Below are positions 12,235 to 61,408 of a stretch of DNA of 64,000 nucleotides, piece after piece (the stretch's first letter is position 1; every line of letters starts with the position of its first letter). A program made the translations under genes and the position numbers. Source of the DNA: Candidatus Saccharimonadota bacterium. Lineage in GTDB: Bacteria > Patescibacteriota > Saccharimonadia > Saccharimonadales > Saccharimonadaceae. Where the stretch lies: positions 124,001-188,000 of the forward strand of contig JAPLYU010000001.1 in NCBI GenBank assembly GCA_026395405.1, given 5' to 3'. The notes beneath the pieces are model-generated. The model did not search any database. It saw nothing but the letters and a program-made list of their open reading frames with translations, and was not told the origin of the DNA.

Positions 12235-12310
12235 TGGTGGGGGCGGTTGGAATTGAACCAACTACCAAGTGGTTATGAGCCGCCTGCTCTAACCGGTGAG
12301 CTACGCCCCC
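12235..12310 (-). tRNA. tRNA with CAT anticodon, Ile2-like (k2C34 type)
   Basis: A 76-nt cloverleaf including encoded CCA: acceptor GGGGGCG/CGCCCCC, D-stem GCTC/GAGC, anticodon loop CTCATAA, T-arm GTTGG-TTCAATT-CCAAC. The anticodon arm and variable region (GCAGGCGGCTCATAACCACTT) closely resemble E. coli tRNA-Ile2 rather than elongator Met, and the window has another better candidate for elongator Met. It would therefore be the substrate of TilS (tilS at 20992). One C-A mismatch lies in the anticodon stem. The Met/Ile call is inference; the tRNA itself is certain. Confidence 0.88.
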
Positions 12311-12872: not shown

Positions 12873-12949
<77 letters not shown>

Positions 12950-17556: not shown

Positions 17557-17566
17557 GTTTTCTAGT

Positions 17567-17759
17567 CCGTAGGTAACGCGATTGGAATATCGCTCCACTT
17601 TGTTTTACTCCTCCGTTTGCTTATAAAAATATGTAAACACATTTTTATTTCGCTGTACTTCGCGACCTGGCGATTATTTTTGCCAGGGAAAAAAGTCGCC
17701 GGTTCAATCAGTTGCGATTACCAAAAACAAAACCCCATCTTATGATGAGGTATTATTTT
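17567..17759 (-). ncRNA. tRNA-Met trailer element with antisense and sense copies of the tRNA T-arm
   Basis: Read on the minus strand after tRNA-Met: a hairpin terminator (about 17759-17720), then TTGAACCGGCGAC (17707-17695), the exact complement of this tRNA's GTCGCCGGTTCAA (17790-17778); then TCGCCAG (17673-17667), a partial sense copy of the T-stem; then a 79-nt core (17666-17588) from GTCGCG to GATA; then TTCCAATCGCGTTACCTACG, a degraded copy of the tRNA 3' end. The same order is found after tRNA-Lys at 60615-60815. It may be a trailer RNA or a small tRNA-targeted element. Confidence 0.6.
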
Positions 17760-17836
17760 TGGTAGTAGCGGCTGGAATTGAACCGGCGACCTCAGGCTTA
17801 TGAGTCCTGCGCTCTAACCAACTGAGCTACGCTACC
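17760..17836 (-). tRNA. Elongator tRNA-Met (CAT)
   Basis: A 77-nt cloverleaf with encoded CCA: acceptor GGTAGCG/CGCTACT (G1-T72 wobble), D-arm GCTC/GAGC, anticodon loop CTCATAA, T-arm GCCGG-TTCAATT-CCAGC. Mismatches are visible at 31:39 (A x G) and in the T-stem (C x A). Position 1:72 is paired, so this is not the initiator; with the Ile2-like and initiator tRNAs elsewhere, elongator Met is the best call. A hairpin terminator and the trailer element follow. Confidence 0.88.
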
Positions 17837-60541: not shown

Positions 60542-60618
60542 GGGACCATAGCTCAGCTGGTTAGAGCACCTGCCTTTTAAGCAGGGTGTCGTGAGTTCAA
60601 GTCTCACTGGTCCCTCCA
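60542..60618 (+). tRNA. tRNA-Lys (TTT)
   Basis: A 77-nt cloverleaf with encoded CCA: acceptor GGGACCA/TGGTCCC, D-arm GCTC/GAGC, anticodon stem CCTGC/GCAGG with loop CTTTTAA (anticodon TTT), T-arm GTGAG-TTCAAGT-CTCAC. All stems are perfectly paired. Position 73 is T, unusual for tRNA-Lys where a purine is normal. Confidence 0.95.
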
Positions 60619-60815
60619 AATTAAATATACCAACCGAAAGGCTGGTATATTTAATTTGGAAAGCCCGCTGGGCTTTGAACTCACGACGTAGATTTTGCCC
60701 CCAGCAAAATATACTAGTCGTGAGGTCGCGTAGTGAATGACGTGAAAAAGTGTTTACATTTTTTCGCAAATGAACGGAGGAGCAAGCAAAGCGAGTGATA
60801 GTCTCACTGGTCCCC
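60615..60815 (+). ncRNA. tRNA-Lys trailer element with antisense and sense copies of the tRNA T-arm
   Basis: In order: a ~20-bp AT-rich hairpin with GAAA loop (60616-60660, likely terminator); TTGAACTCACGAC (60675-60687), exact complement of the tRNA's GTCGTGAGTTCAA (60588-60600); a hairpin ATTTTGC-CCCCA-GCAAAAT; GTCGTGAG (60717-60724), a sense copy able to pair with the antisense; a 76-nt core (60725-60800) from GTCGCG to GATA; then GTCTCACTGGTCCC (60801-60814), an exact copy of the tRNA 3' end placed 200 nt downstream. The same order follows tRNA-Met at 17567-17759. Confidence 0.65.
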
Positions 60816-60889: not shown

Positions 60890-61408
60890 ATGGAGGGAGA
60901 GGATTTAGCTGGTAGGCTTACGTTCCCAGAACATCTGCCAGACGCGGCAGTAATAAGCGAACAGGCATTGATTAGACGATTTGAGCGTACAGTGGTACAT
61001 AGTAATGGTGATGTTTTAATGATGTCGACCGATGATGCTAGAAGAGTCTATGAAATACTGGTTAATCAGGTCGAAGCAGACAACACAGCGGCAGATGAGT
61101 TAACGGCACTTGAGGGGAAGATGAGAGACGAGATTGATAGAATCGCAGCCGTATTGCCGGACGATTCCAAAGTACCAGAAGAGATCGTAGACGATAAATC
61201 GTCCCCTCAAACCCTCATGGTGGTATTGTCTAGCTATGTTGATGCGTTGGCGTCGCACTACGAAGAAACAAAAATCACAAATATTTCCGTAGAACAGGAA
61301 AGAGATATCGTTAGGACAGAGGCACAACCATTAGTAGAAGCAATCGGAAGATCTGCAGCAGGACACATGGTTACTCTATCGGTGAAAAAGGAACCAAAAA
61401 AAGCGTAA
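60890..61408 (+). CDS. Cytoplasmic helical protein of unknown function
   Basis: 172 residues, acidic, no TM or signal, mostly alpha-helical (ARRVYEILVNQVEADNTAADEL, then KMRDEIDRIAAVL). AAAGGAGGTGAT upstream of the ATG is a complete anti-SD match, among the strongest in the window. Composition and SD use resemble the 209-aa protein at 10646. No family recognised. Confidence 0.6.
   Translation: MEGEDLAGRLTFPEHLPDAAVISEQALIRRFERTVVHSNGDVLMMSTDDARRVYEILVNQVEADNTAADELTALEGKMRDEIDRIAAVLPDDSKVPEEIVDDKSSPQTLMVVLSSYVDALASHYEETKITNISVEQERDIVRTEAQPLVEAIGRSAAGHMVTLSVKKEPKKA

Follow-up and report, generated by a model that had tools for sequence, protein, structure and literature searches.

Islands in tRNA genes are usually attributed to tyrosine integrases. 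Their accepted mark is an intact tRNA gene together with a displaced fragment of it, and Islander requires an integrase encoded on the island (PMC4383910). The T-loop is a known sublocation of integration, used for example by mycobacteriophage Ms6 (PMC1762012). Here we describe a structured site that follows tRNA-Met(CAT) and tRNA-Lys(TTT) in a 64,000-nucleotide stretch of DNA (the window; contig JAPLYU010000001.1, positions 124,001 to 188,000), part of a 0.855 Mb Candidatus Saccharibacteria genome. Each site joins an antisense copy of the tRNA arm to a compact core, behind which lies a displaced 3' end of the same tRNA. In our view these sites are probably the tRNA-distal attachment ends of small integrative elements (cassettes) that Saccharimonadales carry in the loops of tRNA arms, mostly the T-loop. 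In open-access full texts we found no description of tRNA-linked cassettes in Saccharibacteria, nor any counterpart to an antisense target copy combined with two structured cores.

Anatomy of the sites at tRNA-Met and tRNA-Lys

The cores of both sites belong to the first of two types distinguished below (type I). R1, a covariance model of the type I core built from 23 sequences, the Met and Lys copies among them, matches the window at exactly two places, the Met core (E-value 6.7e-17) and the Lys core (E-value 1.7e-14). The parts of the Met site, read along the minus strand, are as follows.

17760..17836, minus strand: tRNA-Met(CAT), the intact target gene (ARAGORN, Rfam RF00005); its 3' part would be borne by the element
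17721..17759, minus strand: terminator-like hairpin directly after the CCA of tRNA-Met (from the sequence)
17695..17707, minus strand: antisense block TTGAACCGGCGAC, complement of positions 46-58 (T-arm and T-loop) of the tRNA (from the sequence; complementarity across the family covers positions 46-66)
17674..17694, minus strand: spacer hairpin, family consensus roughly TTTTTGCAAAGCAAAAA (from the sequence and the consensus across loci)
17667..17673, minus strand: sense copy of the 5' half of the T-stem, TCGCCAG (from the sequence)
17589..17666, minus strand: type I core, 78 nt (R1 match 17607-17665; covariation)
17622..17649, minus strand: hairpin H2 of the core, about 11 bp, with an invariant G.T pair and a TTTA loop (covariation)
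17566..17588, minus strand: displaced, decayed 3' end of tRNA-Met (ATTCCAATCGCG...) (from the sequence; intact counterparts with the old terminator occur at four other loci, named below)

The Lys site (60542-60815) repeats this order of parts on the plus strand.

60542..60618, plus strand: tRNA-Lys(TTT), the target gene (ARAGORN, Rfam RF00005)
60675..60687, plus strand: antisense block TTGAACTCACGAC, 13 nt, exact complement of the T-arm of tRNA-Lys (from the sequence)
60717..60724, plus strand: sense copy of the T-stem, GTCGTGAG (from the sequence)
60725..60799, plus strand: type I core (R1 match 60726-60783)
60800..60815, plus strand: displaced 3' end of tRNA-Lys, AGTCTCACTGGTCCCC (from the sequence)

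At the Met site, TTGAACCGGCGAC is the exact complement of GTCGCCGGTTCAA in the tRNA, and the sense copy TCGCCAG has a single mismatch to the tRNA's TCGCCGG. The core consists, in order, of a conserved left edge, hairpin H2 (AAAAATGTGTTTACATATTTTT), the motif GGAGGAG, a short 3' hairpin and GAT. An initial annotation of this DNA had listed the same order of parts, to which we add the spacer hairpin, and had claimed that both 13-nt antisense blocks are exactly complementary to their own tRNA, that the two cores are related and that chance is a very unlikely explanation; all of this agrees with our results, R1 picking out just these two places in the window and finding 12 copies in the whole genome, nearly all 83-110 nt past a tRNA. 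The other two tRNA-Met(CAT) genes of the window (12235-12310 and 12873-12948) are without such a site.

Two core families across many tRNA genes

A scan of the whole genome revealed further sites missed by R1, in which the antisense block and the displaced tRNA end recur around a different core (type II). Type I and type II cores are two unrelated families. They measure 75-95 nt overall, about 78 nt in type I and about 94 nt in type II. Using A for the T-arm up to the loop, B for the remaining 3' end of the tRNA, t for the terminator and s for the spacer hairpin, a site reads A B t / B'A' s A core / B t, the first B and t being those attached to the intact gene.

Sites are present on 22 of the 41 tRNA genes of this genome (12 of type I and 10 of type II), and relatives hold hundreds more. 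R1 detects type I cores in 97 of 245 genomes of the family; weaker copies in other families of the order are tRNA-adjacent as well. The type II model, R2, finds 11 copies in this genome and matches 76 of the 245 family genomes, with up to 17 copies per genome and almost none outside the order. Across 115 type I copies, the core starts at a median of 95 nt (interquartile range 91-99) past the 3' end of a tRNA on the same strand, and the preceding tRNAs represent at least 26 isoacceptors. Neither core type has a match in Rfam, and we therefore rejected a known RNA family. We also rejected a phage or plasmid origin, since viral contigs held no exact core matches, a type I site showed no similarity to a phage collection and a type II site none to a plasmid collection; the named records among exact core matches elsewhere are all Candidatus Saccharibacteria.

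The degraded tRNA 3' end that the initial annotation had noticed behind the core is indeed there, and can be specified as the displaced 3' end of that very tRNA in 111 of 115 type I copies, with about 90% identity over positions 59-67. This displaced end begins at position 58/59 in the same 111 copies, and at position 57 in all 28 tRNA-adjacent copies of type II. The island mark, an intact tRNA on one side and, on the far side, a displaced piece of that tRNA, is accordingly present in 111/115 type I and 28/28 tRNA-adjacent type II copies. At four loci (L009, L013, L019 and L023), B runs through the CCA into the old terminator, whose sequence is unlike that of the first t.

The antisense block and the core edge follow the target

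In 79 of 82 type I copies, the antisense block B'A' covers tRNA positions 46-66, centred on the T-loop, and past position 67 complementarity is near background. The block is specific to the local tRNA, with a mean match score of 12.1 against the own tRNA versus 6.7 against other tRNAs (82 tRNA-adjacent copies); the corresponding type II scores are 11.75 and 7.45. The earlier suggestion that the antisense was either made from the local tRNA or is kept complementary to it is thus borne out across the 115 copies.

The similarity of type I core bodies does not track tRNA identity (p=0.23), which led us to reject a separate core lineage for each tRNA. The left edge of the core does track residue 57 of the T-loop: it is TCG or TCA in 22 of 23 tRNAs with A57, and TCG in only 1 of 77 with G57/R59, the pattern to be expected of strand exchange within the T-loop. 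Moreover, in A57 copies the antisense implies the A57 (17/23) and T54 (18/23) of the intact tRNA, where the sense strand of the site reads G. Since it carries the bases of the intact tRNA, the antisense is matched to the uninterrupted target and not to the adjacent split copy, and this would favour a targeting role in single-stranded form, as RNA or DNA.

Covariation supports the structure of both cores. In the type I hairpin, 8 of 15 pairs show two-sided changes and one G.T pair is almost invariant; in type II, 98.1% of cells are paired and 21 of 25 pairs show two-sided changes, a level reached by 0 of 500 shuffles. The loop of H2 is exchanged for unrelated stem-loops between conserved flanks in several type I copies (the L117 and L067 cores, L071, L103 and L022).

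Cargo, tandem sites and inverted cores

At no fewer than seven loci, genes separate a tRNA from its still-matching site, over spans of 0.6-8.2 kb.

Own tRNA-Trp: 7.7 kb between the tRNA and the matching site
Own tRNA-Pro(TGG): 8.2 kb
Own tRNA-Gly(GCC): about 1 kb, one gene
tRNA-Pro of genome G011: 5.9 kb
tRNA-Gln(TTG) of genome G014: 6.6 kb
tRNA-Ser(CGA) of genome G097: 3.75 kb
tRNA-Asp of genome G002: 0.6 kb, one small open reading frame

The same tRNA-Asp locus is without cargo in five other genomes, and at the tRNA-Asn loci of G023 and G008 the cargo lies between successive sites. The cargo includes restriction-modification genes (a TdeIII-type pair and a ThaI-type system), candidate defence genes (PDC-M36A- and PD-T7-4-like genes and a ThsB TIR-like protein), NT5C/YecM, HIT and pilin-like proteins, membrane proteins and recombinases.

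Sites also occur in tandem (L188, L194), and inverted cores are found at fMet (L161, L205, L195) and at Phe. Four type II copies (L297, L295, L278, L300) lie upstream of the intact tRNA. Each is preceded by a displaced 5' piece of the tRNA, which is split in the T-arm, the anticodon loop or the D-arm. The intact tRNA of these four loci is left with a different upstream (promoter) region.

Candidate recombinases

Large serine recombinases are encoded in 21 of 28 genomes of the genus, and in 18 of 29 loci (L308-L337, genus genomes) the 3' end of the recombinase gene abuts or overlaps the 3' end of a convergent tRNA gene, with many isoacceptors represented. Three recombinase islands end in a core site for the same tRNA: the own tRNA-Pro (type II), tRNA-Pro of G011 (type I) and tRNA-Leu(TAG) of G014 (type II). 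Another candidate island end, G005:C20:48967, was rejected because it belongs to the local tRNA-Ser. The own 8.2 kb island at tRNA-Pro(TGG) (C4:204660-212957, L237) has a large serine recombinase gene overlapping the tRNA 3' end, and also holds the ThaI-type restriction-modification system, a tyrosine recombinase, the ThsB TIR-like protein and an 8xMP membrane protein.

A single Xer gene is present in nearly every genome of the genus, including genomes without type I cores; being almost everywhere, it does not discriminate genomes, and we rejected it as a marker of the system. The own Xer scores 225.5 bits against the XerA/integron-integrase family model, above the curated cut-off of 220, and 148 against the IntI model, below its cut-off of 265. 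At C2:31114-32933, its gene and a tRNA-Arg(CCT) that bears a site are oriented divergently and separated by an ndk-like gene; the neighbourhood of tRNA-Arg and Xer recurs in many genus genomes. No DEDD recombinase or transposase of the IS110 type was found in the sites or the scanned cargo proteins, the rest of the genome not having been searched for it. The best candidates for the enzyme would be the large serine recombinases that abut tRNA genes and, failing these, the single Xer; either may act on the cores.

Discussion

The sites that match a distant tRNA, the displaced 3' end after the core and the tandem remnants together argue for an integrative element in the tRNA gene. Such an element would enter a tRNA arm at its loop, in most cases the T-loop, and supply its own tRNA 3' half and terminator, so that the tRNA would survive while the original 3' half is shifted downstream of the core. 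At its end it would carry the entire target arm in antisense, together with the compact structured core, which a recombinase may recognise. The antisense, exposed on a single strand (RNA, or displaced or folded DNA), could pair with the intact tRNA arm and thereby select both the target and the crossover in the arm loop. Elements whose cargo ranges from 0 to 8 kb would be moved in this way, most of them in trans. A bolder version, which we put forward tentatively and regard as doubtful, is programmable integration guided by nucleic acid, in which interchangeable cores and an antisense guide to one tRNA arm would lead a recombinase to the loops of almost any tRNA gene, where cassettes would be inserted and stacked, with the tRNA rebuilt each time.

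Several observations weigh against the integrative element as we propose it. The terminators before and after the core differ in sequence, and the half that restores the tRNA is therefore no simple duplicate of sequence at the site. Most copies are without a recombinase; the three islands that have one carry a large serine recombinase, and one of them a tyrosine recombinase as well. A large serine recombinase alone would need neither a 90-nt folded core nor an antisense arm, and no gene is known that all core-bearing genomes share and all others lack. Nor does the model explain by what route an element comes to carry arms that match a new tRNA. Finally, empty orthologous sites were sought twice via downstream genes and none was obtained, because the flanking genes are genome-specific; indeed, the genes just beyond the Lys site (window 60890-61408) and the Trp site (C4:491565-492155) are unmatched in the other 27 genomes of the genus.

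The initial annotation had taken the site for a trailer of the tRNA transcript, and a regulatory trailer RNA, for instance one exerting antisense control of tRNA folding or processing, would suit the fixed short distance to the tRNA and the T-arm complementarity of most copies. We now hold it to be very improbable: sites 0.6-8.2 kb away, with genes in between, still match their tRNA, and displaced tRNA ends, old terminators, tandem remnants, inverted cores and copies upstream of tRNAs contradict it. A passive repeat, akin to miniature inverted-repeat transposable elements (MITEs), might simply happen to target tRNA loops, with the antisense left as a by-product of template switching at insertion. 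The copies are short, gene-less, repeated and found in either orientation, and the zig-zag order of the inverted ones resembles replication fold-back. Yet the complementarity is graded, confined to positions 46-66 and stops short of the acceptor end, the type of core edge tracks the T-loop class, and there are covariation and cargo to account for, all of which makes this origin improbable.

Two further explanations concern how such an element would recombine. The site might be an integron-like folded single strand, in which the antisense, the sense arms and the displaced 3' end form one long hairpin with the core extruded (attC layout R''-L''-loop-L'-R') and the single Xer, as the tyrosine recombinase, recombines it with the T-arm as attI. 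The topology is that of a cassette array with an attC at each 3' end, tandem sites and cargo are array-like at L071, L188 and L194, and nearly every genus genome has its one Xer, the own copy above the XerA/integron-integrase cut-off. Site DNA also folds better than dinucleotide shuffles (mean z -3.8 for the top, tRNA-sense, strand and -3.0 for the bottom), the top strand being more stable in 94 of 115 sites. However, we know of no attC that carries an insert of 78-94 nt at its crossover point. For tRNAs with A57, the antisense fits the intact tRNA and not the site's own strand, Xer is also found where type I cores are absent, and IntI recognises the bottom strand (PMC3053210) whereas the G.T bias here favours the top. 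We regard this explanation as possible but questionable. RNA-guided integration appears unlikely to us. Here the site would be a small RNA gene, with the core as scaffold and the antisense as guide to the intact tRNA arm for a recombinase acting in trans, as in the bridge RNAs and seekRNAs of IS110 elements. It is consistent with a constant scaffold next to a variable target-matching block, with an antisense that complements a contiguous, uninterrupted target, with covarying helices whose conserved G.U pairs lie on one strand, and with two unrelated scaffolds sharing one arrangement. On the other hand, most sites sit just behind a tRNA terminator and most copies have no recombinase linked in cis to the RNA; mismatches between A and A' comprise 63 G.T and 62 A.C, and without a G.U excess RNA is not favoured for the A stem.

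Integrative elements of the proposed kind would explain how accessory genes, restriction-modification and candidate defence genes among them, are acquired and stacked by host-dependent, sub-megabase bacteria with their essential tRNAs undisrupted; in one genome, about half of the tRNA genes are occupied. The module of antisense and core makes it testable whether a mobile element finds a tRNA by base pairing. If it does, the cassettes would add another class of guided DNA insertion, and nature would already provide examples for more than 26 different targets.

Relationship to known systems

Overall, the system behaves as tRNA-gene islands do and has the layout of an integron cassette, without an integrase in most copies and without IntI. 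As in tRNA-gene islands (Islander, PMC4383910), the target tRNA is split and restored by the element, and a displaced fragment marks the far end; unlike them, the present elements mostly measure 0.1-8 kb and usually lack an integrase, one core type serves dozens of tRNA types, and an antisense copy of the target arm accompanies a covarying structured core. With integron cassettes and their attC (PMC3053210) they share a site at the 3' end of the cassette, in the form of a foldable inverted repeat with its two arms, array-like series, an attI-like target and a plausible folded strand. No IntI gene beside an attI was found, most genomes having only one Xer-type recombinase, and the elements differ further in that the landing sites are tRNA genes, the arms match the individual tRNA, a large structured core lies at the crossover and the stronger fold is on the opposite strand. 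The bridge RNA or seekRNA of IS110/IS1111 elements (PMC11208160, PMC11187229) is likewise a structured non-coding element with a target-complementary block and diverse targets among similar elements, whereas here the element end lies in a tRNA gene and rebuilds it. MITEs and other short non-autonomous repeats are similarly short, gene-less, multicopy and, if mobile at all, moved in trans; the cassettes of Saccharimonadales are set apart from them by a precise target, target-matched arms, occasional cargo genes and the restoration of the tRNA.
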